A stretch of DNA of 64,000 bases from Pyropia yezoensis (lineage: Eukaryota > Rhodophyta > Bangiophyceae > Bangiales > Bangiaceae): positions 43,290,878-43,354,877 of the forward strand of contig CM020618.1 in NCBI GenBank assembly GCA_009829735.1, given 5' to 3'. The translations under genes were made by a program, and so were the position numbers. A model generated the notes under the pieces. It made no database searches. It saw only the letters and a list, made by a program, of their open reading frames with translations, and was not told the DNA's origin. Position 1 is the first letter of the stretch. Every line of letters starts with the position of its first letter. Below are positions 18,073 through 37,300 of the stretch, in pieces.

Positions 18073-18669
18073 TCAATAGTACTCGCCCGTCGCCTTGCCC
18101 TTGGAGTCGAGCAGCCCCGCCCAATAGTTGGCCTCAAACGCCTTGACTGCGTCCACGTCCAGGAGGGCCTCAATGTAGCCAGCATTCTCGCGCACCGGGA
18201 AGACGGCCAGGTTGGAGGGCGGCTGCAGCTTGCCCAGCAGCGGGCCAAGGACGGGCGGGAAGGGGCACCACGCGCCCGACAGCTCGCCAGTCTTGAGGTC
18301 CCAGCTGCTCTTGTGCTGCGCGCACGTGAGGACGCCATCGCCAACCTCGCCGTCGGTCAATGGGGTGCCCAGATGCGGGCAGATGTTGGACGACGCGTAC
18401 ACCTGGCCGTCAAAGTCACACGAGACGAGGATGTTCTGGCCGGTAGTGTAGATGGGCTTCAGCTCCCCAGGCTCGATATCGGACGTCGGCAGCAGCTGCA
18501 CCCACGCGTCCGTCTCCATCCGCATCGGAGAGAAGGCGGGGAGGCGGGCGGGGGCAACGGCGGGCGCCGTGACGGCTGACCCGAAGGCCGTGCTCCGCCG
18601 CGTCATCACCGCCGACGAGCCGGTCGGCCGCGAGGCCAGGACCGCGCCCGCGGCCACAAAAGCGACCAT
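18073..18669 (-). CDS. Plastid-type Rieske [2Fe-2S] protein, copy 1
   Basis: Small Rieske-fold iron-sulphur protein of 198 residues. Cluster ligands are intact: CPH in SSNICPHLGTPL and CAQH in VLTCAQHKSSWDL, the C-x-H ... C-x2-H pattern of a ferredoxin-type Rieske centre. The first 45 residues (MVAFVAAGAVLASRP ... MTRRSTAFG) are Ala/Ser/Arg-rich with no acidic residues, as in a transit peptide. The C-terminus ends YWAGLLDSKGKATGEYY. The domain plus the GAWCPFPPVLGPLL segment resembles thylakoid Rieske proteins of the TEF5/PSB33 kind, but I cannot confirm that. The start is fixed by comparison with the second copy at 57.7-58.3 kb, which aligns from this Met with the same length. It diverges from RPL3 with about 0.95 kb between them. 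Confidence 0.85.
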   Translation of the reverse strand: MVAFVAAGAVLASRPTGSSAVMTRRSTAFGSAVTAPAVAPARLPAFSPMRMETDAWVQLLPTSDIEPGELKPIYTTGQNILVSCDFDGQVYASSNICPHLGTPLTDGEVGDGVLTCAQHKSSWDLKTGELSGAWCPFPPVLGPLLGKLQPPSNLAVFPVRENAGYIEALLDVDAVKAFEANYWAGLLDSKGKATGEYY

Positions 18670-19614
18670 GGTGCAAGAGAGGGCTGTGGCGGGGACAGGA
18701 AGAGGGTGTTGGGTTGAACGAGTCGGGTGCAAGGGGGGGAGGAACAGATCGCTACCGGAGCGGAAGGGAGGCGGATGGACGTAACCACGTAGGCTGTCAC
18801 CGTCAACAACCCTTCACAGCGACGGGGCTTCTGGGTGGCTGACCGCGCGCGCTGGCGGATTATGTGGGTGCCCTGGCCGTCGTGGGAGGGGAATGGGCCT
18901 GGCGCACACGGGAAGCCGCCTGGGCCAACGATTGTCGACGGTGTGGGCGGGGGAGGGATGGGGGAGATCGAGGGAAGCGCGCTCTCAAACTGATCACATT
19001 TTGGACGGGATGTCTGCAAGGCCGTGCGTTCGCCCCGGTTTTTTGTGTCAAGTGTGCTCCTCCGAGCCAATCAGACACGAGAACAATCAAAGCTGAGGAA
19101 ACTTTCATGCTTAAGGTCTTACCAAGCTGGTGTTGCACCGTGATATTGTTTGTCTCGTATGGGCACAGGGGGCGGCGAACACTGTCTCAGCCAATGGCAG
19201 CCGCAATCGTTGTGAAACACTCAATGAGACGCTCTTGCAAATCGCTGATGCTTTCGCCGCTTCGCATCAACCTGCAATACGGTTAGCGCGCTAGCCTTTC
19301 TCAAACAAGTACAGTTTAAAGAGAGCCATTCGCATTGTGGGCCTTAAGGGTTTGTATTGCACTAGAACATGGGACAGCTGCTATGATTTGATTGGATGCC
19401 CCATTTGTCGGGAATGGTCCAATCGATCGTCTCAAGTAAGGTCCGATCGTCAACTTTCAGTCGGGATCCTGCGCCGGTCACGGTCGTGCGCCGGGCGTCG
19501 TTGACGTCCCAGTCACCCCAGGGTTGGCGTCGTCTTCGTCGCCAGCGACATCGGCGGCAGCCCCAATTCTATCCCTTGCGACGATTGCGTATCGCCTGCG
19601 GGGTTGCTTCCACC
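18670..19614. other. Intergenic region between divergent Rieske and RPL3 genes
   Basis: Shared upstream region of two divergent genes. It is clearly less GC-rich between 19020 and 19420, with CCAAT-type boxes (CCAATGG near 19192, GGTCCAATCG near 19416) and short A/T runs. No open frame with a domain. Probably promoters of both genes and the 5' leader of RPL3. Confidence 0.5.
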
Positions 19615-20796
19615 ATGTCGCACCGGAAGTTTGAGCAGCCCCGCCATGGGTCTCTGGCCTTTCTGCCGCGCAAGCGCGCTGCGCGGCATCGCGGAAAGGT
19701 GAAGACCTTCCCCAAGGATGACGCGTCGAAGCCCTGCCACCTGACCGCCTTCATGGGCTACAAGGCGGGCATGACGCACATTGTGCGTGACGTGGACAAG
19801 CCGGGGTCGAAGGTGCATAAAAAGGAGGTGGTGGAGGCGGTCTCTATCGTTGAGGCGCCCCCTATGATTGCTGTCGGCGTGGTCGGCTACGTTGAGACTC
19901 CCCGCGGCCTGCGGTCCCTGAAGACGGTGTGGGCCCAGCACCTCAACGACGAGGTGAAGCGCCGCTTCTACAAGAACTGGTACAAGTCGAAGAAGAAGGC
20001 GTTCACGCGTTACACGAAGACTGCCTATGACGAGGGCGGCCTGGCGGCAGACATTGCCTTGATTGAGAAGCACTGCACCGTCGTGCGGCTCCTGGTTCAC
20101 ACCCAGATGCGGCTGATTCGCCTGCGCCAGAAGAAGGCGCACATGATGGAGGTGCAGATCAACGGTGGCTCCATCGCGGACAAGTTGGCGTACGCGCAGG
20201 GTCTTTTCGAGAAGCCGATCAGCGTCGACTCGGTGTTTGGCAAGGACGAGATGATTGACGTCATTGGTGTCACCCGCGGCCGCGGCTTTGAGGGCGTCAT
20301 CACCCGCTGGGGCGTGACCCGCCTGCCGCGCAAGACCCATCGTGGCCTCCGGAAGGTTGCTTGCATTGGCGCGTGGCATCCGGCGCGCGTGTCCTACACC
20401 GTCCCTCGCGCCGGGCAGATGGGCTACCATCACCGGACGCAGACGAACCTCAAGGTGTACCGCCTGGGTAAGGCGGACGATACGAAGAACGCCACCACCG
20501 ACTATGACCTGACGGAGAAGACCATCACGCCCATGGGCGGCTTCCCCCACTACGGTTTGGTGCGTGAGGACTTCGTGATGGTCAAGGGCGGTGTCCAGGG
20601 TCCGAAGAAGCGGGTGCTTACTCTCCGCAAGACGCTGTTCAACCAGACGTCCCGTGCGGCCCAAGAGGTCATCAACCTGAAGTTCATCGACACCAGCTCC
20701 AAGTTCGGCCATGGCCGCTTCCAGACATCGGACGAGAAGGCCAAGTTCATGGGCAGCCTCAAGAAGACCGAGGTTGCGGAGGCTGCGGCCGCGTAA
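19615..20796 (+). CDS. RPL3: 60S ribosomal protein L3
   Basis: Core protein of the large cytosolic ribosomal subunit, near the peptidyl transferase centre. The 393 residues match the family's usual length of about 390. It opens with [22 protein letters not shown] and contains [15 protein letters not shown], the W-finger region ([28 protein letters not shown]), and GGFPHYG with [20 protein letters not shown]. The last residues ([11 protein letters not shown]) are a short Ala-rich tail. The start is unambiguous because homology begins at the first Met. Single exon with strong codon bias to G/C-ending codons, as expected for a highly expressed gene. Convergent with Derlin. Confidence 0.98.
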
Positions 20797-21417
20797 GACT
20801 TGGCCCCCGCTTTGTAGGCACTTTGCTTCAATACCAAAGACACGTTTCCCATGGCCAGTTCCTTCTTCGACCGCCGCCTTCATCTCCGTCTGCTGTCGCT
20901 CGGTGTACCACCTCTCTTTTCTTTCTGCTGTCCGAACTTCATGTCAGAATGCGTGCAAGTTTCGCGTCCCAGATCCTTCCACATGGAAGGCCGCTGTGCC
21001 AGGTATTTTCTTTTATCTGAGCGCCAACAGCAGTTCGTATTGCGCATCCCTTTTGTCATGACTACAAGCCACGGAAGCCGGCCGACTTTCTGTTCCCCAC
21101 CTCACTACTCGGCCAACATCTGCTGACTGGAACTTGTGTAACGGCGGCGCGCAACAAAGCACCAATGCTGCGTCGCTGAAGAGGCACGTCACGTGCATGG
21201 GCATAGGGTTCACTGTGTGGACGATGCTGAGTGGAAGATGGGGTCACAGCGAAGTACAAGGCCGGGGGGCAGACCCCAGCTGACAAAACAGCTGTCGCTC
21301 CGCCGAGAACTACACGACACAGCATAGCCTGTACAATCCCCACAATCAAACAAGAGAATCCCAGCGGGCCAGAGAAGAACATAGCACAGAGAGCATACAC
21401 ACGCACGGCTGGCCGCC
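20797..21417. other. Spacer between convergent RPL3 and Derlin genes
   Basis: T- and C-rich 3' regions of both genes, less GC-rich than the coding parts. No domain or repeat seen. The poly(A) signals are not obvious. Confidence 0.5.
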
Positions 21418-22323
21418 TCAATTCGAGCCTAACCGCTGGCCAGACCCCCAGGAGCGACCCTGACTGGTCGCTGCCGCAACCGACGACCGCAGGCCAGCCG
21501 CAGAGAACCCCCGAGTCGCTCCTGTGGCTGCACTCGCATTGCCCGACGCTCCAAAGGACGCGCGGCCAGCCGGCGACGATGCGCCAGCGCCTGACCCTGG
21601 GCGCCTGGGCGCCGCGGGCTGCCCACTCCCTCCCTGGTTCAACCGCTCCACCGCGGTCACAACCCAAGAAGGCGTCTTGAGAGGCCGTGCGCCCCCACGG
21701 CCTGGCAGGGTTGGATAGATCTGGTCCATGAAGAAGTAGGCGTGGCCAACAAGAATGCCCACAATGCCCTGCCAGTCCAGTGCCCCACCATTGATGACAA
21801 AGAAAAGGGCTACCAGCGCAAAAGAAAGATAGCCCGCGGGGATGGAAACGAAGCCGTAGAGCGACACGGGGAGTGTAGGGTTGTGACGGCCCCACATGTG
21901 CACAATGGCCGAGATAAGGGCGGGGCCCAGCACCATAAATGGTGCCACCGCGGTACTCAGCAGCAGCCCCAGTGAGACGTACATCAGCGCAGCGACGTAG
22001 TCAGCAGTGTTTCCGCCAAAAGCACCCATTTCAAGCTGCCTAGAGTACTGGTAGAGGTACATGATCTTCAGCAAAAAGTTGAAGTTGAGCTTTTGCTGGT
22101 GCAGCAGCGTGAAGAGTGGGCGCCAAACATGGAAGCGGCCAAGGACCGCCGTCCAGTCGAGGACAAACACCGACGGGGATACCACGCCAAGTCCCGAACC
22201 ACACGTGACAGCGAGCGTGCCAAGCATCAGATAACGGGTGACCGGGGGAATGTCGGCTAGCCATGACGAAACGCTCGTCTCCCCAACCGCGCCGCGGCCA
22301 CCGCCACCGCCCTGGTCTGCCAT
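21418..22323 (-). CDS. Derlin, ER-associated degradation membrane protein
   Basis: Rhomboid-like pseudoprotease of the ER membrane that helps retrotranslocate misfolded proteins. 301 residues, single exon. Marks: WLADIPPVTRYLMLGTL near the N-terminus, FHVWRPLFTLLHQQKLNFNFLLKIMYLYQYSRQLE, then several hydrophobic segments and GHAYFFMDQIYPTLPG. About four to six membrane segments can be read between residues 25 and 215. The C-terminal 80 residues are Gly/Ser/Ala-rich and disordered, a likely cytosolic tail; I do not see a clear p97-binding SHP box. The start (MADQGGGG) was chosen because an earlier in-frame Met would add 66 residues without homology. Confidence 0.92.
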   Translation of the reverse strand: MADQGGGGGRGAVGETSVSSWLADIPPVTRYLMLGTLAVTCGSGLGVVSPSVFVLDWTAVLGRFHVWRPLFTLLHQQKLNFNFLLKIMYLYQYSRQLEMGAFGGNTADYVAALMYVSLGLLLSTAVAPFMVLGPALISAIVHMWGRHNPTLPVSLYGFVSIPAGYLSFALVALFFVINGGALDWQGIVGILVGHAYFFMDQIYPTLPGRGGARPLKTPSWVVTAVERLNQGGSGQPAAPRRPGSGAGASSPAGRASFGASGNASAATGATRGFSAAGLRSSVAAATSQGRSWGSGQRLGSN

Positions 22324-22830
22324 GCTCAGAACCAGATAATCGGCGTGCACGCAGGCCGCAAGGGGTGAAGAAGCGGTGAGGGAAACAGAGGGGCAGTCAG
22401 AAGGATGATGGCGCGGAGACAAGGGGTGGTTCCGAGGCAGAGGCGTTTGCAAGCCAAAACACAAACCTCGGCTTGGTGTCTGAAACAGGTGCTCCGGCAC
22501 GGAAATTGACCGTGCTGACAATAACTACTTGAGGACAGCAAGGAGCATGATCCATATCGTTTTCAATTGTTTCGGCAGTTGTATCGGAAAGTACAGATTC
22601 TAGGATAGTGGCTTATGTTTATACAGGGCAGGTGGGCTACTTCCTCCTCATGGTGAGATCGCGGCGACGCGGCGCGAGCGAGAGCCGCCGCCCGCCCCGG
22701 CGCACACCCCGCCTGCATCCATCGTATCCCTCTTGGGCGTGTCCTACACGTGCAGCGGCCCCCGTCTGCGCGCCTTTCTGACGGGCGGACGCGGAGTCTT
22801 CTTCCCTCTTTACTTCCGTATCTGCACATC
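22324..22830. other. Intergenic region between divergent Derlin and GTPase genes
   Basis: About 0.5 kb with an AT-richer core around 22500-22630. Probably holds both promoters. No coding feature. Confidence 0.45.
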
Positions 22831-24944
22831 ATGGATTCCCAGGCGGTGGTGGTCGATGGTGATGGGGTTTTGACAACTGCATCGCCCTTTTTTGAGTCCG
22901 ACCACCGCCTCGGCGACACGCCTGCCGTCATTGTAGCCGTTCTGGGTGTTCGCGGCTGTGGCAAGTCTACCCTAGTGAATGCTCTTTTTGATGCCACTGT
23001 CCCTGTTGGTACCGGCTCCGTGCTGGCACAGCGTCGGAGCCCCCCGGCGACAACGGGCATCCTGGCTACCAAGAACGAGACCTTTGTGGGTGGCGCGCCC
23101 TCCCCTATGATTGTCCTGGATGTTGGGGAACTGGAGAGTGAGTCTCGACCGCCCACCCGTGCCGACCGAGCTTTCCACGCGCGGTCTGCCGCTTTTGCGG
23201 CGGGCGTAGCCGACGTGATCCTTCTCAACGTCTGGGCGGCGGACGTAGGCCGCCTCGAAGGGGCGCCCATGAAGCTTCTAGAGGCAGTCTTTGCCGAGGT
23301 AGCCAAGACCGCCGCGGAGGTGAGCGGCGATGAAAACCGCCACATCCGCACTGCGCTGACGTTTGTCGTGCGCGACGCGGCGACTGATGCGGACATTTCT
23401 GCTCTGGGTCACTCCCTGGTGACGGACGCTGCGGACCTGTGGGCGGGGATGGAGGTGGGGGATGCTGGTGCCATTGAGCTGGAGGACTATTTTGACTTCG
23501 AGGTGGTTGCTCTTCCCCACTACACCCACGCGCGGGCTCAATGGGATGCGGCAGTCGCCGACCTGAGCAAGCGTCTCCGTCTCCCCTCCATTGAAGAAGA
23601 GGCCAGCGCTCTGCCTGACAACACCCTGTTGCTAAAGGCGTACAGCAAGGGTATTACGACCACTGGATTGGCAGCGTACAGCCGTTCCCTATGGGAGGCT
23701 ACCAAGTACGCAGCAGGGGTTGTGGTCGGCACTGCCAGCAGCGTGGGTGCGTCTGCGCGTTCCGCACGAGCGGTGTCTTCCGTGGGGGCAACTGCTGTGG
23801 ACGAGGACGGGCAGACGGATGAGGAGGGTGCCGACGGCGGCGGCGGTGCCGGCAGCGAAATGGCGGCCGTCTATCATTGTGACAGCTCCTTCTCTCAAGT
23901 TCTGAATTCCTCTTCTCGGGATCTGTCGGCCATATCTCGCACGCAGACGGATGAGGAGTCTCCCGTTGAGAACCTCGGCTCTGCACTGGACGAGGTGATG
24001 AACACCGCCATGGAGGTGTACGATGAGTCCACCGGCGACTACGCCGAGACGGCTGTGCAGGGGCGCAAGCGGCGGGAGCTGGAAGCTATTCTTGATACAA
24101 TGGGCCACGCCGTGTTTATGCGCCAGCTGGCGCTGTTGCGGGAGTCATCCTTTGACCAGTTCAAGACCGCCACGGGCGCGGGCGACGGTACCGCCTCTTC
24201 GGAGGTGGCCTTTTTCGAGGCCGACGCAGCGTTTGTCGCGGGTGCCGAAGCGGCTAAGCGCACTGGCAGTGGCTGGTCTTTCGAATCGATGCGTAGCGAC
24301 CTTCGGTCGTTGATGCAGGAGCTGAGCGCACAGCGCAAGAAGGTCGTGTCCACCAAGATTGCCGCGTCGGCCGCCCAGTCGCACGCAATGCAGTACCTGC
24401 AGATGCAGCTGTCTCAGCTCCAGGCTATGCAGCAGCAGCAGTACAGTGGTGGGAGTGGGGGGCAATGGAATGTGGGCGCCGCCTACCGCCCGCCCGACAC
24501 CAACATCAACCTGTCACTGGGGCACCAACAAGGCCGTACGAACGTACAGGTGTCGATGGTTCCGGACGAGGCTGCTAGCTGTACGTTATCCCTATCTCTC
24601 GCGCTTCCTGTTTTGCGTGTTATTTCGTTTGGTCTCTGGCTGCGATGGCGCCTTGTCGAGCCGTCTCGTGCCGATTGCCTTTGCCATTCTGCGAGCGCTC
24701 TGGCTTTCTCATGGGTTTTGGCTCTTGGCGCTTCTCGGTGCGAAGGACTCGTTTGTCGTCCGGATCCTAACGCGCCCCTTGCCTGGCTGCGGTGTGTGTT
24801 TGCGCTCGTGCCTTTTTTCCTTGGTGCATATTGCCGCTACTACACGGCCTGTATCACATGCGTCTTTCCACAGATCTGGGTCCCAATGGCTTCTCGTCGG
24901 TGGGCCCCGGCAACCTGGGCATGTCGTTTAACGTCAACCTGTAA
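22831..24944 (+). CDS. RHD3/GB1-type large GTPase, two exons
   Basis: Dynamin-related large GTPase of the GB1/RHD3 type. Exon 1 is 22831-24580; a GT-AG intron of 293 bp (GTACGT ... CCACAG) leads to exon 2 at 24874-24944, for 606 residues. The splice is supported by the family-like C-terminus it makes: PDEAASY-LGPNGFSSVGPGNLGMSFNVNL. The P-loop GVRGCGKSTLVN is at residues 38-49. The G3 region reads LDVGELESE, not a standard DxxG. TFVVRDAA (around residue 175) probably takes the place of the guanine-specificity RD motif. After the G domain comes a helical region with Q-rich coiled coil (MQYLQMQLSQLQAMQQQQ). No transmembrane pair is present in the spliced form, unlike atlastin or Sey1, so an ER-fusion role should not be assumed. 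Read-through of the intron stays open to 25008. Confidence 0.8.
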
Positions 24945-25528
24945 CAGCATTGTCGCCTTCGTTGCGTCGGTCACGGGTGCTCTCGAGTCAACTCTTGGGG
25001 GATGCTGAAAAAAGGGGCAGCCTTCGTCTTCTTTGTGTGTAGGGAGCGACTCTGTGTATGACCATGTGGGAAGGCGTGAAAGCGTTACCTGATGGTAGAC
25101 CTGTGGCTCGCCACTTCCTCCCTCCCTCACCAGTGGCGCGCGGGAACAACACCACCCATTGGCTTGTCGCTGGGGCAGCTTTCTCCTGTGTACGAACGTC
25201 GCGGTGGTGCGACAATCGCCTCCGAAGTAGAGGGTGCGGCCTCAGGCGCGGGGAGGCCTTGAGCAACCGCTCTGCAGTAGTTCCATGAGCCAACATGACG
25301 CTGCCGGTGCCGCACTCTAAAATGAAGCGAGGTTCCGTCTCTTCTTAACTATCGGTTAAACCCCTCCGGGAAACATCCGACTCATCCTGGGAAAGGTCCC
25401 CGGGAAAAGCCGGCGTCTAACCTACTAGTGAACGGCCGACAATTACCCATAATTGGCTCGTCGGCGAAAAAGGGGGCGGCTGACGCACCCCGTGGTAGGT
25501 GAGGGTCACGGGCAAGATGTGCGCTGTC
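24945..25528. other. Intergenic stretch downstream of the Fanzor-like gene
   Basis: Lies just beyond the 3' end of the Fanzor-like frame (which reads leftwards). GC content drops sharply between about 25290 and 25470. Short repeats of the CGGGAAA kind (at about 25374, 25389 and 25401) and a stem GCAAGA ... TCTTGC (25512-25540, overlapping the stop codon) are visible. In related systems a guide RNA may extend past the 3' end of the nuclease gene, but nothing here proves one. Confidence 0.4.
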
Positions 25529-28500
25529 TTAGCGTCTTGCAGTGTCCACCAGACCACGGGGCGCGTCTGTCGCCCCCGTCTCCGCCCGACGTACCCCGTC
25601 CATGGCACTGCCGGCCGCCGCCACCTGTTCCCCACCAGGAGCACCGCGTCGCGTCGTACAGGACGCCGCCGTCGCGTCGCCGTCGACAACCCCCCTACCG
25701 CCACCGCCACCGCCACCGCCACCGCCACCGCCACCGCCACCACCACCACCACCGTCGACGACAGTGTCCACTGCAGCCAGTACGGGCCATACATCGACCC
25801 GCGTAGTCGCACGGGTGCGACGTACAGGCGGGACGGGAACACCACTGGGAGGACGCTTGGTCGTCCAGGCCCACCTCATACCAAACGGGCGCTTGAAAGG
25901 CCACACGTTGGTACCCGTGAGACGACGAGCGGCCACCCACGCCATGTTGCGGGCCGCAACGTCGTCCCGATTGCGAATCACGGGCGGGTGTGGCGCTGGG
26001 TGACCGGGGCCTTGTGGGGCCGCGAGAGAGCACGTGTAGCAGCCCTTGGCCGCCCACTCGCTCAGCCGCCTCGGGTCGGCATAGACGGCGCGGTCCTCGA
26101 CGGCACAGGCGGCCAGCGCGGCCGCGCGCCGCGCCACAGCAGCAGCACGGGCAGTGGCTCGGACGGCCTCACGGTAGGCGTCGGGGTCTGGCCCTCGGCG
26201 CGTCACGTGGGTAGCAGAGGGGAGGGCCCGCTTTGGCCGCCCCCGACGCGAACCCGCCGCCATCCGCACACGCCGTGTCGACGGCAGAGGGCCGGCCGGC
26301 GGCCCATTCAGCTCTCTTGGAATCTTGGGGGGGGAGTTGCCCGTCGAGTAGATGAGCACCATCTTGTCGTGACACTCGGAGCACGCCTGGCTGGTGTTGA
26401 ACTCGTCCTGGTCGACAAGCCAGCACAGCCGTCGGAGGTGGCGGCGGAGCCAGGCGTCCCCCCCGCGCACGCGCGCGGTGCCCATGGCCACGACGACCGC
26501 GCCGCCGCCACGGACCTGGCGAAGGAGGCCGCCGGTCAGGTCCCGCGCCACCGAGGCAGCAAAGCGGCCGCGTTGGATGGCCTTGCGCACACGCGCCGCC
26601 CGCAGGTGTCGGGTGGCTTGCGCGCCAAATCGCTGGCCGTACGCGGCCGTGTCCCGACGGGCGGCCCACTCGAGCGTTGCCTGTAGGTGCTTGCCGTCGT
26701 CGCCGGTACGCATCGTGCCGTGTGCTGCTGCCAGGTCGACGGGTGGTAGGTGGCCAGCGACGCCGCCTCCGTCACCCGCCGCCGCCGCCACAAGTCCCGC
26801 CACCGCCACCGCCACCGGTCCCGCTCCAGTACCGCTGCGTGCCCGCCACTGCTTCCACGCACGGGCCAAAAAGTTACCGCCGCTGGCCTCGCGAAAGTGG
26901 GCGGCACTCAGGCTGTAGCAAAGGCCGGGGACGGGTGCCAGTCGACGACACCCCTTGCGCCGGGGCAGCGCGTCCACCCGGTTTTGCAGCGGCGCGTCTA
27001 GGGTGGTGCCACTGGCACTGTCGCCTGCCGCGGCAGTGGGGTCCACCAGCCACCGTGCCACCTTTTCCGCCTCGTGACGGGGCACAGTCCACCGGGACAG
27101 GCGCGTGCGACGCAGCACACGCCGCACCGAGGTGGCGAGCTGGGTGCGGCGGGCCCGTCGGATGGACGCCTGCGGCCCACGCCGCACGCGCCCGTGGCCA
27201 CCGCCGGGGCTCGCCGTCTGGTAGGTCTTTGCCTCGGGGGGCGTCGTCGCACCCGCCGCCGCCGGGGCCACCGCCGCCGCATCATCGTCGCTCCCGTCGG
27301 GTGACGACCGCCGTGCTTGTCGCTTGCAGCGCCCCCCCCCTGTGCCCGCCCCTGCAGCCGGGGCGCCCGCCGCCGCCCGCTTCCTAGACCCCCCCGGTGG
27401 GTGGCCGTCGGGCACGGTTGCGGCTGCCGCCACCCCGTCTTGGACGCCCGCCCCACGCAGGAGCGCCACGGCCGCCCGGTTGAGCGCGTCCAAGCCCATG
27501 TGGCGGGACCACGCGGCGCGCATCGCGTCTACAACGGGGCGGGCGGGGAGGTCTGCCGTCGCTACGCGCTCACCCGGTGCTGCCGACAGTACGGCAGACC
27601 GTCCCGGGTCTCCGCCGACCATCTGGAGCCACCGGACGCGCGCCAACGGCAGGCCAGCCCGCTCCAGCTGTGTCAGTACCCCCACCCGGGACGCAAAGGC
27701 TTTGCCGCTGCGGTCCCGTGCACGTCCACCGCCGTCCAGCTTCTTGGCCCAGGCCACCGCCCGCGCCTCGGCCTCTGCGGCCGTGTCGGGTCGAGACAGA
27801 AAAAACGTTACCGCCACGCCGTCGGTAGACAGCTGGGAGGAGGCCCGGTTTGCGCGGCCACCGACACCCGCCATGGCGGCCAGCACCGCTGCACCGCCCG
27901 CTCGCAGCTCTGGCCATGCCCGAAGACTGGGGTGGCCACGCACCCCCACGCCAGTGGCGACCGAAACTGCCCGCAACAGGGGGAGCATCTTGTCCGGCAC
28001 CAGCGTGCCGTGACCGTGGAGCACCGCTCGGGCGCCAGGGATGAGGGCGTACGGGCTCTCCACACCCACATTCAGGACGTGGAGCAGAAACGGCACGTAC
28101 GCCCACCAGCGGCGCTTCTTCACAGGCGTTGCTGGAAAGAGGCCCGCCACAGAGGGTGGCATGGCCGCCCGCATGACGGCCACCCGTTGCGCCAGCGCCT
28201 GGACCAGGTGTTGGGGGACGCCGTCGAGGCCCCGCCGGCCCGGCGTTGCCTTGTCCGCGGTACCCGCGCGGAAGCGCGCGGCCGCCCACCGCGTCAGCCG
28301 CCGCTCCGTGTCCCAGGCAGAGCCGCCCGCTGGAGCAGCCGTGGCAGCGGGGGAGGTGGCCAGCGCGTCCTTGACCGCCTTGGCGCCCAGCTTGCGACAC
28401 GCCGCGTCCACACACCGCCCGGCGTGGGTGGCCACGATGGTGGCGACGGGCTCCCATCGTGCCGTGTTGTTGCTCGCCGGAAGATACCGGTCGCACGCAG

Positions 28501-29737
28501 CTGCCGTGACGGCCATCACCTGCGTCAGGGCGTAGGAGAGCGCCTCTGCCAGCAGTGGGTGGCTCGTCGTCACCACAGAGCGGGCGCGCGCCATCCGCGT
28601 GTTGGCCCGCCCCTTGCCACAGCCCGCACACACGGTGCCCGCTTGCAGGGGACTGCCAGACACACCCTCGCAGCCGCAGGCGTACGCCAACCATAGCCAG
28701 ACGGGCGCCCAGTTTGCGGGCACGGCCCCCGCCCAGTCGGCGTCGTCGGCGGCTGCGTCCGCGACGGTCGACACCAGGCGCCGCAATGCCACGTCGAGGA
28801 CGCGGAGCATGAGGAAGCGGAGCTTGGTAGCCGCCCCAGAGAGGTCCTCCAGCTCTGCTTGCAGCGCCGTCTCTACCGCCGCGCGCGTGTCGGCGTCGTC
28901 CTTGTCGTCCCCAAACACCGCCCTCGCGAGGACGCCCACCGGCACGGTACACGCCCGCGTCTGCCGTCCCGTGCTCTGAAGCGGGTCCTTGCAGTCGGGG
29001 TTGACGCCGCGGTCGTAGGCCGCTGACACACCCCCGCAGCGCCGCTGCACCGGGCAGGCGGCGTCCCCGCTGCTGTGGCCCCCTCCCAGGCAGTCGCGAC
29101 ACTTGGACGCGGCCGCCGCCGCCGCCGCCGGGACGGCGGCGGCGGCGGGGCCGGCGGCAGCAGCTGCCGCCGGCCCTGCACCAGCCGGGGCCTTGCAAGA
29201 GCTGACCTTGTGTCCCGGCTCGCCACATCCGCCACACTTTTGCGTCCGCCCCTTGCGAGCGGGCGGTGCGTCCGTGGCAGCCTCGCGCCGGGGCAAGCCC
29301 GCGGCGGCCACGCCAATCAGACCAGCGGCCGTCTTGGCGCGTGCGGCGAGCTCCACCTCGGCCTCGCTTGCCGCCGCCCGACCACCACAGTACACGCTGA
29401 CCGCCTGTGCCGCGCCTGTGATGGCCGCGACGAGGTCCTCGCCGGCGGCGCCGTCGAGGGGGCCCGCCGCCTCCTCATCCTTGGCCGCCTGCTGCACCTG
29501 CGCGACGGCGGCATACCAGTCGGCCGACGAGGCCGCGTCGCCCCCGTGGGGTGCAGACACGCCCTGCAAGCGGCTCAGGTTGGCGGCGAGCACCGCCCGC
29601 TTGAGCGTCACCACGTTGCGTGCGTCTTGAACGTACGCCTGCTCTTGTACAGGGTCCCACTCCTCGTCCGAGGTGGCGTCGCCGTCCAGCCCGTCGACGC
29701 CAATGTCTTGGTCGCTGCCGTCGTCATCATCGTTCAT
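25529..29737 (-). CDS. Fanzor/TnpB-like RNA-guided nuclease
   Basis: Resembles eukaryotic Fanzor proteins, RuvC-fold relatives of bacterial TnpB that cut DNA guided by an RNA. Marks in order: two CCHC-like zinc knuckles (CGGCGEPGHKVSSC near residue 167 and CRDCLGGGH near 211) separated by poly-Ala; a further CAGC near 366; STDGVAVTFFLS near 635; GGDPGR near 709 (RuvC-I Asp); AMGTARVRGG near 1085; DQDEFNTSQACSECHDK near 1109, where the Glu fits the relocated catalytic Glu of Fanzors and CSEC opens the zinc ribbon; GCYTC near 1231 closing it; and NRDDVAARN near 1256 (RuvC-III Asp). At 1402 residues it is about twice the usual size, with a long insert inside the zinc ribbon and low-complexity linkers. 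The start MNDDDDGSDQD follows an A/T-rich leader; the frame is open further 5' but without sense. One uninterrupted exon with all key residues, so it may be active. The last 30 residues are Gly repeats. Confidence 0.82.
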   Translation of the reverse strand: MNDDDDGSDQDIGVDGLDGDATSDEEWDPVQEQAYVQDARNVVTLKRAVLAANLSRLQGVSAPHGGDAASSADWYAAVAQVQQAAKDEEAAGPLDGAAGEDLVAAITGAAQAVSVYCGGRAAASEAEVELAARAKTAAGLIGVAAAGLPRREAATDAPPARKGRTQKCGGCGEPGHKVSSCKAPAGAGPAAAAAAGPAAAAVPAAAAAAASKCRDCLGGGHSSGDAACPVQRRCGGVSAAYDRGVNPDCKDPLQSTGRQTRACTVPVGVLARAVFGDDKDDADTRAAVETALQAELEDLSGAATKLRFLMLRVLDVALRRLVSTVADAAADDADWAGAVPANWAPVWLWLAYACGCEGVSGSPLQAGTVCAGCGKGRANTRMARARSVVTTSHPLLAEALSYALTQVMAVTAAACDRYLPASNNTARWEPVATIVATHAGRCVDAACRKLGAKAVKDALATSPAATAAPAGGSAWDTERRLTRWAAARFRAGTADKATPGRRGLDGVPQHLVQALAQRVAVMRAAMPPSVAGLFPATPVKKRRWWAYVPFLLHVLNVGVESPYALIPGARAVLHGHGTLVPDKMLPLLRAVSVATGVGVRGHPSLRAWPELRAGGAAVLAAMAGVGGRANRASSQLSTDGVAVTFFLSRPDTAAEAEARAVAWAKKLDGGGRARDRSGKAFASRVGVLTQLERAGLPLARVRWLQMVGGDPGRSAVLSAAPGERVATADLPARPVVDAMRAAWSRHMGLDALNRAAVALLRGAGVQDGVAAAATVPDGHPPGGSRKRAAAGAPAAGAGTGGGRCKRQARRSSPDGSDDDAAAVAPAAAGATTPPEAKTYQTASPGGGHGRVRRGPQASIRRARRTQLATSVRRVLRRTRLSRWTVPRHEAEKVARWLVDPTAAAGDSASGTTLDAPLQNRVDALPRRKGCRRLAPVPGLCYSLSAAHFREASGGNFLARAWKQWRARSGTGAGPVAVAVAGLVAAAAGDGGGVAGHLPPVDLAAAHGTMRTGDDGKHLQATLEWAARRDTAAYGQRFGAQATRHLRAARVRKAIQRGRFAASVARDLTGGLLRQVRGGGAVVVAMGTARVRGGDAWLRRHLRRLCWLVDQDEFNTSQACSECHDKMVLIYSTGNSPPKIPRELNGPPAGPLPSTRRVRMAAGSRRGRPKRALPSATHVTRRGPDPDAYREAVRATARAAAVARRAAALAACAVEDRAVYADPRRLSEWAAKGCYTCSLAAPQGPGHPAPHPPVIRNRDDVAARNMAWVAARRLTGTNVWPFKRPFGMRWAWTTKRPPSGVPVPPVRRTRATTRVDVWPVLAAVDTVVDGGGGGGGGGGGGGGGGGGGRGVVDGDATAASCTTRRGAPGGEQVAAAGSAMDGVRRAETGATDAPRGLVDTARR

Positions 29738-29913
29738 CGTGAATTTGGGGCGAGGGGGTGAGGGGGGGGGGGGGAAGGGGGGGGGGGGGGGGGCGGAGGC
29801 GGATGAGCGGGTTGTGTGTGTGGGAACGACTGCGAGGAGGGTGGGTGGGAGGGATTGTCGACGGTGGCTGACGGGGTCGGCAAAGATGGGGAACCTCGGG
29901 GCACCACCTACCG

Positions 29914-29926
29914 CCCTATTTATTGT
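29914..29926 (-). promoter_or_regulatory. TATA-like element upstream of the Fanzor-like gene
   Basis: On the minus strand the sequence reads AATAAATAGGGCGG, an AT-rich box in GC-rich surroundings about 180 bp before the chosen start. It supports starting the protein at MNDDDD rather than at the far upstream Met. Confidence 0.35.
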
Positions 29927-31072
29927 CTGGCAAGGCACCATCCGGGCCGGGGTCCTCACTCGATGCCGTACTCGTGCTGTAGACGCTGGCGATGGGCTGC
30001 ACGGGCCGTCAGGAGGCCGGCGGTCCAGGTCCTCCCAACGCCCTCCCGCCCCCCCCCTCCCCCCCCCTCCGCCCGCCCCCCGCCACCCCCCAACCGACGC
30101 TACCTCTCTGGCAGGGGGCAGAGCGGAGGATGCTCGCACCGCCACGTGCCCCTGTGGGCTGTCTCGTGGCCTTGGCTCGCCGCCCCGGAAATGAAAGGTC
30201 CTTCTCATCTCTGCGGTACCCGTGGCCGACGGTGGCTGTCGTGAGAGTGTCCTGTGGCGCGGCGGCGGCGGCGGTGGCGGTGGTGGGGCTGGCGGTGGTG
30301 GTGTGGCGGCGGCGGTGGTGGTGATCGGGTTGGTGGCCCAATTGCAGACCGCGCACAGACGCTGTGCTCATGGCAGCCGCCAGTAGCGCGACGGTGGGTG
30401 CGGGACGGAGTGCACCGCATGCACTGTGGCATTCGAGCCGACTGACACGCCAGCATCCGTGCGGCTCGCCCAACCATGGCGAGCGCGCGCCCCCCCCCCC
30501 CCCACCTCCCCCCCTCCCCCCCCGCTCCCCCCCCTCCCCCCCCCCCCCCCTCCCGACGGCACGTGTTGGGAGAGTGACCGCCACCGTGCTGCGGGGCAAT
30601 AGCAACACTACAATTGAACCCACCCTCGGCACTGCCTGCTCGCCACGGTGCATGTGGAGCGGCGTGTTGGGACGCGGGCACCCAGCGTTTTGGTGCTTCC
30701 GGTAGGCCCCGTCCGTTTGCAATGCACTACGAGCACCGTTTGGGAAAAATGTCATCCTGGACGTCTTGTTGGGGGGGGGGGGGGTGCAGTCGTGTAATGC
30801 AAACCCACCGCCACAGACGGCATTGCCATGCTGCGAGCTCACCGCGCGGTGCATCCAAATGGCCTGTCACCAGCACACGACACCGCGCGGGCCGCGTGGA
30901 CCTACGGCTCTCGTCAGACCCGGGGGGCGCCGAGGGAAGCGACTGATCTGACCTGCATGTGGCTGAACGTGCGGCCGACGGATGAGAGCACCCATCCCCG
31001 GACACCCCCGTCACCGTCCAATTCAACATCATCTCGCGCCGCCGCCCAAATCCCCTCCCCTCCCGTTGATCC

Positions 31073-31248
31073 GCGTCGGTGTCAGCCGGTGATCGGGCTC
31101 CACGGAATTCGAAATTCAATTCGTCCCCCCTCCCCCGCCCGTCGCCCTCTCTTTCCCCTCTTGACAAAGACGGCCCTCCCACCCTATCTATTTAGCGTCG
31201 GTGTCGGCCGGTGATCGGGCTCCTCGGAATTCGAAATTCAATTCGTCC
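31073..31248. repeat. Pair of 54-bp direct repeats, 122 bp apart
   Basis: GCGTCGGTGTC-GCCGGTGATCGGGCTCC followed by CGGAATTCGAAATTCAATTCG occurs at 31073-31126 and again at 31195-31248 with only a few changes. The AT-rich end is itself partly self-complementary (GAATTCGAAATTC). Between the copies lies pyrimidine-rich sequence. Possibly the ends of a small element or a duplicated control region. Confidence 0.75.
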
Positions 31249-31828
31249 GGGGGGCGCGCCCATTGAGGGGTCGATTAGATGTCTAATGACCTATGGAGCT
31301 TTTCATGAGCGAATGGTGGGTCCTGCGGGTGTCCGAATCATTTTTGTGTCACTGAGTGGTGGGTTTAATGACCCTAATTTTCATCGCAGACCAAGCCACC
31401 ACCTGCTGAGCAGTGGCGCGTCACCACCCTGGTGATGTGCGCCTTGTGGGCTGTTTGAGAGGCAGTGACGCGGGAGTGCGTGAGTGAGTGTTTGAGGGGC
31501 AGGGCGGTGAGGCGTGAGGGAGGCGTCAGTGCAAGTCCCTTGGCGGCAGGAGGGTGCGGGGGGGGGGGCCAAGTCGCTCGGTGGCAGCTCGGTGGCAGCC
31601 CACACCATTGCCGACGAGGTCAAACGATCACATGTCTGGCAACGGCACCGCACCCGACTAGTGAATGGTAAACAGGTAAGTTCAACTTCTCGACCCCCAC
31701 GACCCCCCATTCCCGCATGAAAGTAGTCAATTTGCCGACAAGAAATTAACAAATACCATCAAAATCATGACGCAATCGGAAAACACTTATTCACCCGTCG
31801 ACACATAACAATCTCGACAAGGATCCGA

Positions 31829-32207
31829 AGAGCGTTATGTACATAACGCTCTATGGTCCGCCTGACAAGCCACGACTCCCAGATTCTCCAATGGCTCGCC
31901 TGTCGCGTTATGTACATAACGCGACACCATCAGCTCTGGCCAACTATCTCGACAAACATCAGAAGAGCGTTATGTACATAACGCGCCACGGTCTGTCTAC
32001 CGTACCACACCTACAAGATTCTCAAAAAGGCTCAACTCACGCGTTATGTACATAACGCCACACGGTCAGCCTCGGCAATCTGTCGGGACGATGCCAAGTG
32101 CTCGCCAGACGCGTTATGTACATAACGCGACTCGGTCTGCCTTGGCCAAGTCCCCGCCAATATCCGACCATGGAACGTACCCATCTGTTGCGTTATGCAC
32201 ACAACAT
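31829..32207. repeat. Array of six palindromes built on GCGTTATGTACATAACGC
   Basis: Perfect palindromes of 18 to 26 bp are centred at 31840/41, 31913/14, 31975/76, 32049/50 and 32119/20; a sixth, decayed copy is centred near 32198. Centre spacing is 73, 62, 74, 70 and 79 bp. Flanks repeat too: ATCTCGACAA..ATC.GAAG precedes copies 1 and 3, and AGATTCTC.A lies before copies 2 and 4, so the unit is really a dimer of about 135 bp. The outer bases of each palindrome differ but compensate on both sides in copies 1, 2 and 5, which suggests selection for symmetry. The layout suits binding of a dimeric protein (transposase, replication or partition factor). It is not a CRISPR array: the repeats are palindromic and the spacers are related. 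Confidence 0.9.
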
Positions 32208-32412
32208 GGCATGACTCAAGACTGATGGTGTTACCATGGGCCACACACGCAAATCAAAACGTCAACTGTACCAGTTGTCATCTACACTGGGGAACAACCG
32301 GCCATCACATGAAAAGCGACACCTTCAAAGCATAAAAGAGACGGGGTGCCGTACAGTCCCACCCCCCGGCCCACCCGCCCCGGCCCTCCCCCCCCCCCTC
32401 ACATACTCTCGT

Positions 32413-35024
32413 CTAGTACATCCTGTCGGGGGCCACAATGTTGATGTGCTCCCGGCCCGGTAGACCTGGCTGCCTCCACCTACGGCGGACGTTGTCCCAC
32501 CAGCTCTTCCAGACACCTCCAGAGCTTGAAAGGTAGTCCATGTCACCAATCACGTGGAGATGGCTCTGTGCCCGCGACATCATGACGTTCACGCGCCGCT
32601 CGTCGGACAAAAAGTCGGTGTTCCCGCCGGGTGGCGCCCCAGGCTCTGACCGCACGAGGGAGAGTATGACACAGTCCACAGAAGCGCCTTGGCAGCCATC
32701 CACGGTGGACACCCTGACGTCGGCACATGGTCTGCGGGGCAGCCGCCTGCTGTCTCTCACCGACTGCACCACTTCCTTCAGCTTGTTCCGCTGCGCAGTG
32801 TACGGGGTGATGAGCATCACCTTGAGCTCGGTAGCCCCGCTGGACGTCGCCCACGCCAGCAGTAGATCCGTAAGAGCCATCTCGACCAACCGAAGCTCTG
32901 CAACGTTCATCAGGCTCTTGTTGTTGGAGGTGGTGGAACCCGACTTGTGCGCCCGATCGTTGGCCGGCAGGCGGGAAGTGTCTGTCACTTGCAGCCCGCC
33001 AAAGCGAATACGCCGACTCGGATGGTTTAGCCACGCGGGTGTTCCAAACCCCTCCTCATGGCGGGCCTTGGGCCCGCGCCCGTCCGACCATAGGCCAATG
33101 TGCCGGTAAAAGATTTGTCGGAGGAGGGACCATAACAGCGGCCGCATGCGGTACTGCACGGAGAGGATGACGCAAGCGGACAGAAACCGGGCGAGCCGCT
33201 CAAAAACGCTGGACGTCATTGGCCGTGTCTCGCCCCTGTACTCCATGCCGGCGCTCGGCCTCAGCTGGGCATTGTCGCCAACAAGGACAATGCACTTGGT
33301 CCGCTCTGCCGGATGACCGTCCTCTTCTTCATCTGACGAGCCACCCGCACGCCCGGCCCGCTTCTGGGCGCGAACAATGGCGGCGACAGACGCAGGGACG
33401 CTTGTTGCCGCACCCTCGTCAATGATAATGGCGTCAAAGCCTTGACCGCCCACAAGCGCCCCCGTCGACGTTGACGTGGTAGTGACAATGACGGACGCCG
33501 CCCACGATGCGCTTGCGGAGCTCCCGTTCCGCACGCTGCTGGCGGACGCAAGGCAGCCTCCAGGGCTTGCTCCGCATCGGCACATTCCTCGAGGAGGTTT
33601 TGTGACCCACCTGAGCCCAGCTCTGCACCCTGGGCGCGGGAACGATCATCCACACGACCGCCCACATCGGCCACCCGTGCCCTTGCCCGTTCCACTGCGG
33701 CTGTCACGGACGGGTAGGCGAAGGGGAGGCGCTCATCCACCACGGCGTCAATGTGCGTTGTCCTGCACGGTGGCCATCCGGAGGGGGCTCACCCACACGG
33801 AGGAGCGTCACGGCGTCGGTTTCCGCGCCACCATGTCGACTCGCAGCCCCGGCGAACAGAAAACTCGTGCACTGCGTCCAACAGCTCGTCACACGCCGTG
33901 TTTGTGCGCGACGTCAGCAGCACCCGCCCATCGGGCAGCGTCTCAAGGACCATGTCCACCATGGACACAATGGCGCGTGTCTTGCCGTCCCAGGGGGGCC
34001 CGCCACCAGCTGCACGTCCACACTCGTCCGACAACAGCCCCCGGCGCATGCAATCGACTGCGCGCCACTGGAACTCGTCCAGGTGGGCGTAGCGTGGAGG
34101 AGCACTCTGCAGGGGGGGGGGGGGCCGGTGCCGGTACAGGTACCACCTGCTGTCCCCCGTGCGGAGGCGTTGCTTCGATGGCGAGCGCCCTCTGCATGAC
34201 TGGCGGAAGAAGGCCCCAGTGGCCGAGGCCGCCAAACTCGCGGCTGTCCGACAGGACACTATGAGACAGGGTGACGACCACATTCGCCGTCCGGCGATGG
34301 AGCATCCGCCGCACGTCTGAACGACGCACCGCAAACCACCACCGCCGGGGGGACCGGATGCGCCACCGTGGCGCGCCGTGCCGGCGTCATTGTCCTGCTC
34401 GTCCAGCCCCGGGCCAGGCGTCTTGTCCACCCACCACTCGCCTGCCCCCGTGGGCGGTGGGCCACCAACCCCCCCGCCGGGCTGCCCCTCCTTGTCCCCG
34501 CAGCGGCCAATAAACACCGCGTCCACGGGGGTGCTGCACACCGAGCCGACGGGTTCCGGTACCCAAAAGGCACACAAATCACCCGGGGTGGCGTCTGTGG
34601 GGTCCACTTGACACTCTCCCCCGCGGTCCTTGTGGCGGCGGTGGTGGCGCCCAGCGGATCCCCCGGTAGGGCGGCCGCCCCCACCGGGGGGACCACCCCG
34701 GGGGGCGGGCATACGCACGAGCACGTTGCACATGCGACACGCCCGCGGGTCGTCCAGTATGGAGCCCCCCACCTGCGGCGACGACAGGGTGATGGGCGCG
34801 TCGATGCGAGCCACGCCAAAGCGGGAGCACAATGACGACGTGGTCACGCGCCCACTGCGGCCGCCGCCGCCGCCATGGCCCTTGTTGCTGCTGCCTTCGA
34901 TAGACTGCGCCACCGCGTCTGTACCGCGGGCGGCGAGCTGGCACAAGTGGCCACAACGATGGCCTGCAGTGGCCCCCAGGTCCTCTTGCGTACAACGGGG
35001 ACGGGCGCAGGTGGGTTGGGACAC
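32413..35024 (-). CDS. UPF1-type SF1 helicase, reading frame interrupted
   Basis: Superfamily 1 RNA/DNA helicase of the UPF1/senataxin group. In the N-terminal part are RACRMCNVLVRM and a Q-motif-like segment (HLDEFQWRAVDCMRRG). Then come GKTRAIVSMVDMV (Walker A, about 33980), VLLTSRTNTACDELLDAVHEF (motif Ia), FDAIIIDEGA (motif II, with Gly in place of the usual Ala after DE), VLVGDNAQLRPS (motif III), LSVQYRMRP (motif IV), VSTVDGCQGASVDCVILSLVRS (motif V) and DERRVNVMMSRAQSHLHVIGD (motif VI). Motifs lie in order but in more than one frame; changes occur at the Walker A (beside a G/C run) and between about 33590 and 33800. Either assembly errors, short introns or decay would explain this. The gene may extend upstream towards the assembly gap. 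Its place beside the Fanzor-like gene and a transposase-like gene suggests it is cargo or machinery of a mobile element, but a host gene is possible. Confidence 0.7.
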
Positions 35025-35377
35025 CCTTCCACCCCGACTCGGACGTACAGAGCGTCAACTGAACCGAGCGCCACCCGATCGCCATCCGCGCCACACAGTG
35101 TGGGAGGACTGGCCTGGCTGGCACCACCCCCCGCCGCCGCCGCCGCCGCGCGGGCAGAGGTGCAGCAGTGGGAGACGCGTCCCCCCCAGCCGGGGAACCG
35201 ATACAAGGGCCTCCTACGCCGGCAGTCCAACCTCCGACAACTGCCGCACCCGCGTCTGCAACTGCAGGCAAAGCGGGAGAGGGCTCCTCCCCCCGAGCCA
35301 CTGCCGTGCCCACCGCAGCACCCCCGCCGTGTCGGTTGCTGCAGCAGTACCCGGTTCAGCAGGTGCACCTCCGCCAA

Positions 35378-35877
35378 NNNNNNNNNNNNNNNNNNNNNNN
35401 NNNNNNNNNNNNNNNNNNNNNNNNNNNNNNNNNNNNNNNNNNNNNNNNNNNNNNNNNNNNNNNNNNNNNNNNNNNNNNNNNNNNNNNNNNNNNNNNNNNN
35501 NNNNNNNNNNNNNNNNNNNNNNNNNNNNNNNNNNNNNNNNNNNNNNNNNNNNNNNNNNNNNNNNNNNNNNNNNNNNNNNNNNNNNNNNNNNNNNNNNNNN
35601 NNNNNNNNNNNNNNNNNNNNNNNNNNNNNNNNNNNNNNNNNNNNNNNNNNNNNNNNNNNNNNNNNNNNNNNNNNNNNNNNNNNNNNNNNNNNNNNNNNNN
35701 NNNNNNNNNNNNNNNNNNNNNNNNNNNNNNNNNNNNNNNNNNNNNNNNNNNNNNNNNNNNNNNNNNNNNNNNNNNNNNNNNNNNNNNNNNNNNNNNNNNN
35801 NNNNNNNNNNNNNNNNNNNNNNNNNNNNNNNNNNNNNNNNNNNNNNNNNNNNNNNNNNNNNNNNNNNNNNNNNNNNN
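35378..35877. other. Assembly gap of 500 N
   Basis: Exactly 500 unknown bases, a conventional placeholder, so the true length is unknown. It cuts the accessory island between the helicase and the transposase-like gene; both may continue into it. Confidence 0.99.
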
Positions 35878-37300
35878 GCACCCATGCAGCCGAGGGAATA
35901 CCATTCTCTATGGCGTTTTCCCATGCAAGAAGGATGACCACGACGCCCTATCAAGAATGGCTGCTGTGTACGTCCCAGATATCGATGCTCTACGTACGGG
36001 CGGAGTGGAGGTGTCTGGAGAACGCCGCGCCGTGCGGCTCATCCTATTGGGTGACTACTGCTTCATCACGCTTTGGTGTGGCCATATGGGCGCCAGCAGC
36101 CGCATGCCGTGTGTGTACTGCACAGCAATGCGATGCCGCACAGCGCGCAACGGCTCATTGGTGGACCAGTATGGGGACATGCAAGCGGGGAGCAAGGCAC
36201 GTGGCACCCTGCGCACACGTCAACATATGGAGGAAATGGCAGCGGCATATCAAGACGGCGGCAACGCAAGTCGCGGGACTCCGCTGTCATTAAAGGAGCA
36301 CCTGTCCATTGAGCGGCGCCCCCTGCTCATCCTCGACCCAAGCCATATATCTCCAATGCCTTTGCATTTGGTTTTGGGTATCACTGTATGGCTCCTCCGT
36401 CTGGGGATTGAGGCTGTATACTTTTACAACGGGCTGGCGTGCGCGCGCATGTACGCTGAGAACCTGGCGCGAGTGCTGCGGCACGGGGTCGGGGGTCAAA
36501 CCTAAGCCTTACTTCGGGGGGGCCTTCGAGGCCGACAATGCCAGCGCATTGGGCGCCGGCTTTCCATGGTGTGCTCGCTATTGGACGGCAGCGTGCCCGA
36601 GTGGGTAAGCACGGCGTATGCGAGCGCCTGTGCGACGTGGCGGGAGCTGCTGCCAGTGCTGACCGCGGTCGCTTCCATACCCAAGGACGACGTGACACTT
36701 TTCAGACGTAACGCTGCCCAGCTGGTGGACGGTCTTAAACAACACTTTGAGTGGTCGTCTGTCACGCCCAAGCTGCACGTGCTGGCGTGCCACGCCCCAG
36801 ACTTCCTCGCGCTGTTTGGCAGCCTGGGCCGATACAGTGAGCAAGGACTCGAGGCATGGCACGGGCATTTTAACCAGAATGCAAACCAGTATGCGGCTGA
36901 CAGCTTCCTGGAGAGCTGCCTGGCCTACGTGCGGCGCGTCGCTGTGAGCCGTGCGCCAGGCAACGGGGCGTACAACCGCGGAGTGCGGCGGGCCTCAGCG
37001 CCGGACGGCGCCCGGGTCGCGAAGAATCTGGCTGACAAGCGGACCGCTGTGGGGCGGGCAGCCGCTGGAGGGCCCCGCCTGGACTCCGCCTCCTGTGCTC
37101 AGAAGCAAGCAGATGAGGCTGCCAAGTGGGCGGCCGACAATCTGGCCTTAGCAGTTCGGAAGATCGATTCGTACCGCCGGCGTGTGGGCGGGACACAGCT
37201 AGAGGCTGGGACGGCAGACTGCCCTGCCGATGGCGAGGACCACTATGAGGAGCTGTTGGAAGCCGAAACGGCGTGCCTGTTGAGTTCAGGAGAGGAGTAA
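35878..37300 (+). mobile_element. Transposase-like gene of unassigned family, 5' end in the gap
   Basis: Encodes a protein resembling transposon-borne proteins seen in several eukaryotes. The first part holds LILLGDYCFITLWCGHMGASSRMPCVYCTAM (a Gly-Asp followed by a CxxC pair) and LLILDPSHISPMPLHLVLGIT. The second part holds TPKLHVLACHAPDFLALFGSLGRYSEQG-LEAWHGHFNQN, a conserved His/Glu-rich block that could form part of a DDE-type active site. The tail is Ala/Lys/Arg-rich with a C-terminal coiled-coil-like stretch. The two parts share a frame but a stop and a short segment in another frame lie between them (about 36500-36610, next to a G run). The superfamily is not certain; I do not recognise it as MULE, hAT or CACTA. 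No terminal repeats found. Confidence 0.55.

Follow-up and report, generated by a model that had tools for sequence, protein, structure and literature searches.

The question raised by this locus is whether a very long open reading frame (ORF) in the red alga Pyropia yezoensis encodes a working RNA-guided nuclease of the Fanzor type, the remnant of one, or a protein of another kind that has come to resemble one. The ORF lies in a window (the whole 64,000-nucleotide (nt) stretch of DNA that was analyzed); its predicted product is called P0001 here, and related proteins are likewise given P-numbers.

25529..29737, minus strand: giant Fanzor1-like protein P0001, 1402-codon ORF; relatives were found, and its start is common to P0003

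The presence of a 1402-codon ORF with Fanzor-type motifs is confirmed. The reading that we favor, with a probability of roughly 0.6, is that P0001 is a strongly diverged, oversized nuclease of the Fanzor1 lineage that was spread by transposition in red algae, which we take to belong to the Bangiales. Judged by its sequence, and with about the same confidence, it would be an active-type RNA-guided nuclease that is still carried by mobile elements.

Match to Fanzor1 at the catalytic motifs

The features on which the comparison turns are as follows.

27800..27829, minus strand: STDGVAVTFF with the TDG motif, residues 637-646, aligned to the Fanzor1 TDG
27599..27616, minus strand: GGDPGR at residue 708, RuvC-I, with D710 as the equivalent of SpuFz1 D383 by alignment
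27188..27400, minus strand: core of the enlarged RuvC segment, Ala/Gly-rich, residues 780-850, placed by the Asp-Glu spacing
26372..26407, minus strand: DEFNTSQACSEC, residues 1111-1122, by alignment: DEFNTS (1111) with E1112, and the first CxxC, CSEC (1119)
26042..26371, minus strand: 110-residue stretch inside the zinc ribbon, residues 1123-1232, by similarity to P0004
26030..26041, minus strand: CYTC, second CxxC of the zinc ribbon, residues 1233-1236, present in P0001, P0008 and P0010
25946..25972, minus strand: NRDDVAARN at residue 1256, RuvC-III, with D1258 as the equivalent of SpuFz1 D606 by alignment

A profile of P0001, P0004 and P0007 was compared with one of Fanzor1 proteins, namely SpuFz1, PpFz1, GtFz1 and the viral protein L001 (671 amino acids), with 60 column-shuffled templates as the control. 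L001 had been picked from IMG/VR by a DNA pattern encoding VDE[YF]RT-x-x-x-C-x-x-C, and it matched PpFz1, SpuFz1 and GtFz1 in the PDB at E values of 4.5e-35, 2.8e-34 and 4.4e-23, respectively. Two separate and collinear segments of P0001 were found to match: the segment around RuvC-II, the Glu and the first CxxC scored 42.5 over 45 columns (highest of 60 shuffles, 22.0), and that from TDG to RuvC-I scored 33.0 over 59 columns (highest, 19.9), neither score being reached by any of the 60 shuffles. The TDG/RuvC-I segment and the PDB Fanzor1 sequences are free of any circularity arising from the way in which L001 was selected. MAFFT, run unaided, lined up TDG, DPG, Gly, DE, TS, CxxC, one lone Cys further on and NRD, and a tblastn search of the window with L001 landed exactly on the DEFNTSQACSEC stretch, with an E value of only 2.6. 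At the level of sequence, P0001 aligns with Fanzor1 at TDG, at the Asp of RuvC-I and that of RuvC-III, at the relocated RuvC-II Glu and over the first half of its zinc ribbon.

Passages of PMC10711439 describe TDG as characteristic of the Fanzor1 WED domain, and passages of PMC3627910 describe an extra invariant Gly (G500) upstream of the relocated Glu in Fanzor1. In P0001, T638, D639 and G640 aligned with the TDG of L001 and were kept in seven of the eight relatives covering the site (P0009 has TNG), and G1086 aligned with the Gly of FGD in L001, where P0006 reads MD. For SpuFz1, the catalytic residues are reported as D383, E541 and D606 (in passages of PMC10432273 and PMC11423790); the spacings of 158 and 65 residues were exact in the PDB letters (DPN, DEYKTS and NRD), which identified these residues, and they correspond to D710, E1112 and D1258 of P0001. 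The preliminary description had recognized a Fanzor-like protein from its letters, with catalytic signatures made up of two Asp and a Glu that is relocated close to the zinc ribbon; the profile match and the presence of TDG, Gly and Glu agree with it, and the alignment of E1112 with E541 makes the former the equivalent of the relocated RuvC-II Glu.

Conservation was high at these sites. D710 was kept in all eight relatives that cover it, as was DPG in the same eight, E1112 in four of five (Lys in P0007) and D1258 in both. Identity to P0004, which is 61-62% overall, rose to 97% at TDG (30 of 31 residues at 630-660), 80% at RuvC-I, 82% at RuvC-II/Glu and 71% at RuvC-III. Such a peak at the core is the pattern that would be expected if the nuclease core matters.

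Architecture and copies of the gene

The P0001 frame opens with the ATG at 29737 on the minus strand and reaches its stop at 25529 without interruption, and we recovered in it the motifs that had been listed beforehand, at their positions and in the same order. Its length is weak evidence here because the window is rich in guanine and cytosine (GC) and contains other long overlapping ORFs, including ones of 395-555 amino acids that also cover this stretch; stops are present in the matching register of the plus strand. We regard the gene as real because it has a full-length relative of 61% identity, P0004, and because its motifs align with those of true Fanzor1 proteins. The frame is also open 5' to an ATG at 30208, which would give 1559 amino acids; the P. 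yezoensis gene model P0003 and the 1402-residue reading have an identical start Met. We do not favor an in-frame intron where the identity of the RuvC is low, as the models P0003, P0006 and P0009 retain that stretch as coding.

The protein had been called oversized, and so it is: published Fanzor1 proteins are mostly 600-700 amino acids long in passages of PMC11423790 and reach about 800 in passages of PMC10711439. Compared with SpuFz1 (8gkh), PpFz1 (9cf0) and GtFz1 (9cer), P0001 holds in the same order the TDG, the DPG-type Asp, the Gly, the relocated Glu before [TS]S, the first CxxC and the RD-type Asp, whereas it differs in its 1402 residues, its enlarged RuvC and zinc ribbon, the shorter stretch between Gly and Glu that holds the lid, the N-terminal zinc-knuckle patterns and the variation of its family at the second CxxC. 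The distance from D710 to E1112 is 402 residues (364 in P0004, 168 in L001 and 158 in SpuFz1), and that from E1112 to D1258 is 146 (134, 50 and 65, respectively). From the conserved Gly to the Glu we counted 26 residues in P0001 and P0004, 36 in SpuFz1 and 35 in L001; the catalytic lid of SpuFz1 is given as residues 506-522 in passages of PMC11423790. The same passages offer a precedent for an enlarged Fanzor1 RuvC in PpFz1, which has a RuvC insertion (FRI) domain of about 100 amino acids; the Asp-Glu gap of P0001 exceeds even that of PpFz1 (270) by about 130 residues, and the zinc ribbon of P0001 is enlarged as well. By description, P0001 may also be likened to CMe-1A of the red alga Cyanidioschyzon merolae, a red-algal Fanzor1 in a multicopy element (passages of PMC3627910).

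Fanzor2/TnpB proteins with the alternative Glu share with P0001 the DE[YF]-x-TS Glu and a zinc ribbon, whereas TDG has been described for Fanzor1 (passages of PMC10711439), and the one viral Fanzor2-like protein compared, as a single sequence, matched more weakly (30.4 versus 42.5 for the Fanzor1 profile). That viral protein, of 486 amino acids, lies at 1343-2800 on the minus strand of L007 and carries a DEYKTS Glu; we take it to be Fanzor2/TnpB-like. In the profile check proposed beforehand, Pfam and NCBIfam gave P0001 no name at their cut-offs.

The preliminary description had also proposed a long insert within the zinc ribbon and extra zinc knuckles at the N terminus. For the [TS][TS]-x-x-C4 zinc finger of Fanzor1, TSQACSEC and CYTC are both present in the window protein, with 110 residues between the CxxC pairs, and R1257 and D1258 follow the end of CYTC at 1236 within the 5-50-residue range after the zinc finger that is given for Fanzor1. 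The stretch at 1126-1232 is not junk, as 64 of its 105 aligned residues (61%) are identical in P0004; by comparison, the RuvC stretch at 780-850 has 22 of 57 identical, with 16 gaps, and residues 1233-1254, which include the second CxxC, have 3 of 12 (25%). The insert was thus recovered in P0001 itself, whereas the sequences indicate that a complete C4 ribbon is not fixed in the family, because CYTC reads CVSA in P0004. The patterns of the N-terminal region are these.

29195..29236, minus strand: zinc-knuckle pattern CX2CX4HX4C at residues 168-181, which P0003 and P0004 also have
29054..29101, minus strand: a further knuckle-like pattern, CX2CX4HX6C at residues 213-228, which P0003 and P0004 also have
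28619..28678, minus strand: CxC...CxxC pattern, residues 354-373, conserved in P0003 and P0004

The P0004 stretch of the first knuckle matched Pfam zf-CCHC at an E value of 0.029 (14.9 bits versus a cut-off of 20.8), the second pattern matched zf-CCHC_6 at 0.28, also under the cut-off, and a Pfam search of the third gave no match. Since the Pfam zinc-knuckle matches fall under the cut-off, the label "zinc knuckle" is a putative one, founded on the patterns and their conservation; the patterns proposed beforehand were kept in P0003 and P0004.

In the protein searches, the 7977, 7985 and 7998 candidates with the most words in common were scored, and more relatives may exist. With residues 400-1300 as the query (7977 candidates), two relatives were found: P0003 of P. 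yezoensis, with 95% identity over 78% of this region, and P0004, a protein of 1347 amino acids on a 5.2 kb ENA contig, with 61% identity across all of it. A core-profile search (7985 candidates) found 11 proteins, namely ten P. yezoensis models and P0007 (57%). The ten models lie on three chromosome-sized contigs (43.6, 34.3 and 29.4 Mb), are 85-97% identical over the parts covered, cover 9-90% of the query each and, judged from their overlaps, represent at least nine different copies. The family is therefore multicopy and dispersed in P. yezoensis. Among the candidates scored, the nearest proteins come from this species, which points to it or a close relative as the source of the window. From P0011-P0014 a large part is missing, from about 120-180 to about 455-480, with differing junctions, and P0005 lacks more; the missing part takes in the knuckles wholly or partly, and such losses may be deletions or annotation choices. 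For relatives in IMG/VR and GTDB genomes, two peptide patterns each gave 61 and 96 pattern matches, none of which was confirmed.

Competing readings and the genomic setting

Several results weigh against the favored reading, and some of them would suit an unrelated zinc-binding protein that resembles Fanzor1 by chance in Ala/Gly/Arg-rich sequence. Full-length P0001 had no Pfam match at the cut-off (PF07282, E value of 0.35), and although PF07282 was the top Pfam hit of a self-chosen fragment, residues 1105-1275 (E value of 0.0011), its 19.5 bits were under the cut-off of 26.3. The NCBIfam search of P0001 gave no match, nor did the PDB search with the family profile; the best 60 of 236 single-sequence PDB matches all lay in the glycine-rich tail region (residues 1298-1386) and were rejected as linker artefacts. 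HH-suite probabilities were modest, at 54% and 34% for the two segments (84% for the best short fragment), and BLASTP with L001 alone found the same segments at E values of 0.033 and 0.15. The RuvC-III end alone (residues 1200-1290) scored 16.8, with an HH-suite probability of 0.6%, and gave nothing significant, and two AlphaFold2 predictions with mean predicted local distance difference test (pLDDT) values of 35.2 and 32.6 gave no fold support. In addition, the match at DEFNTS is partly circular because L001 was picked by a pattern resembling it. We nevertheless consider chance resemblance highly improbable: two collinear segments each exceeded all 60 shuffles, and ten further sequences from this GC-rich window, proteins or frames each supplied singly, scored lower (12.5-25.0). 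PF07282 was also unseen in P0027 and P0074 (two of the 120 listed relatives of L001). P0001 very probably belongs to the Fanzor1 lineage on sequence grounds, a confidence that we lowered somewhat because L001 was chosen in a partly circular way and because the HH-suite probabilities are modest. The 404 residues between D710 and T1115 lie outside the Fanzor1 spacing D-X(125,275)-[TS][TS] given in passages of PMC3627910; the range is descriptive, and PpFz1, with 272, is already at its limit. Because P0001 lies outside this one published range and under a Pfam cut-off, it is better seen as a diverged variant that would work like Fanzor1 than as a typical member.

The other results bear on whether the gene still works and moves, and concern in part the position at which a guide RNA would be sought by analogy.

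25300..25528, minus strand: 3' flank, guide RNA position by analogy; no support was found

Two folds of this 3' flank were not significant (z of -1.07 and -1.53), and Rfam over 20000-36000 gave no match at gathering scores. At the P0001 locus, no repeat of the flanks, inverted or direct, rose above the shuffled controls; 24941-25560, aligned locally to three right-flank stretches in both orientations, stayed under the best of 40 shuffles in all six comparisons, and a Pfam scan of 27 other ORFs, a subset of those in the window, found no transposase domain. Such silence at the element ends would fit a decaying Fanzor1 relic that has the right lineage and has lost RNA-guided cutting, the window copy being open by youth or chance. 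Further in keeping with decay, P0004 has an incomplete second CxxC, P0007 does not keep this pair, has Lys at E1112 and continues past the zinc ribbon without NRD, and all ten P. yezoensis models are shorter than P0001, many looking truncated, with the large missing parts mentioned above. Against decay stand the conservation peak at the catalytic core between proteins of 61% identity, the retention of D710 and D1258 in every relative covering them and a frame that is open over 1402 codons, and we consider a relic unlikely, if still a serious contender. The missing terminal repeats and adjacent transposase domain, together with long N-terminal additions conserved in P0003 and P0004, might also point to a host gene family derived from Fanzor1, now immobile and retained for a cellular role; at least nine copies over three contigs, with many truncated models, form a transposon-like pattern instead, and such a family is quite improbable. 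A bolder version of the favored nuclease reading, which we put forward as doubtful, is that giant Fanzor1 nucleases form a clade of their own within the Bangiales and are active in present-day seaweeds; their fused zinc knuckles, a RuvC about 240 residues larger and a short lid would lead to different guide-RNA binding and cleavage gating.

The neighbors of P0001 are ordinary nuclear genes, namely those for ribosomal protein L3, an RHD3/Sey1 GTPase, a DER1-like protein, an AAA_11/AAA_12 helicase, a HECT/TRIP12 ligase, GH35 and UTP15. The helicase, which is presumably UPF1-like, extends over 32413-35024 on the minus strand across two different frames, which suggests a broken gene or introns. 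Several repeats were seen in the window. Five exact copies of an 18-nt palindrome, GCGTTATGTACATAACGC, lie at 31832-32128 at a spacing of 62-74 nt (mean chance expectation of 0.02, with up to 3 mismatches allowed); in two copies the palindrome stays perfect out to 24 and 26 nt, with flanking letters that differ. A 54-nt direct repeat (31073-31126 and 31195-31248) is 96% identical, its starts being 122 nt apart, and a 598-nt repeat (18073-18670 and 57728-58325), 94% identical, falls in two Rieske-domain ORFs and represents a duplicated gene. The best 25 of 171 inverted-repeat pairs in the window were rejected as G/C-rich runs.

Proposed mechanism and significance

RNA binding, cleavage, mobility and a role for the knuckles are what we infer for P0001 under the favored reading of a mobile Fanzor1-lineage nuclease. 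P0001 would bind a guide RNA that comes from the end of the element encoding it, the guide would pair with an empty or sister site, and the matched DNA would be cut via a RuvC center formed by D710, E1112 and D1258, with cleavage helping the element to be retained; further nucleic-acid binding may come from the N-terminal zinc knuckles.

In the open-licence PMC literature we found no paper joining Fanzor with Pyropia, Porphyra or a zinc knuckle; supplementary survey tables may list these proteins. The basic picture of Fanzor is unchanged by P0001. A relative of 1402 amino acids that goes unnamed at the cut-offs of Pfam and NCBIfam suggests that the Fanzor1 family reaches beyond those models, and that the Fanzor1 RuvC and zinc ribbon can bear very large additions with the catalytic core still conserved. 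The finding also means that nori seaweeds may carry a family of RNA-guided nucleases.

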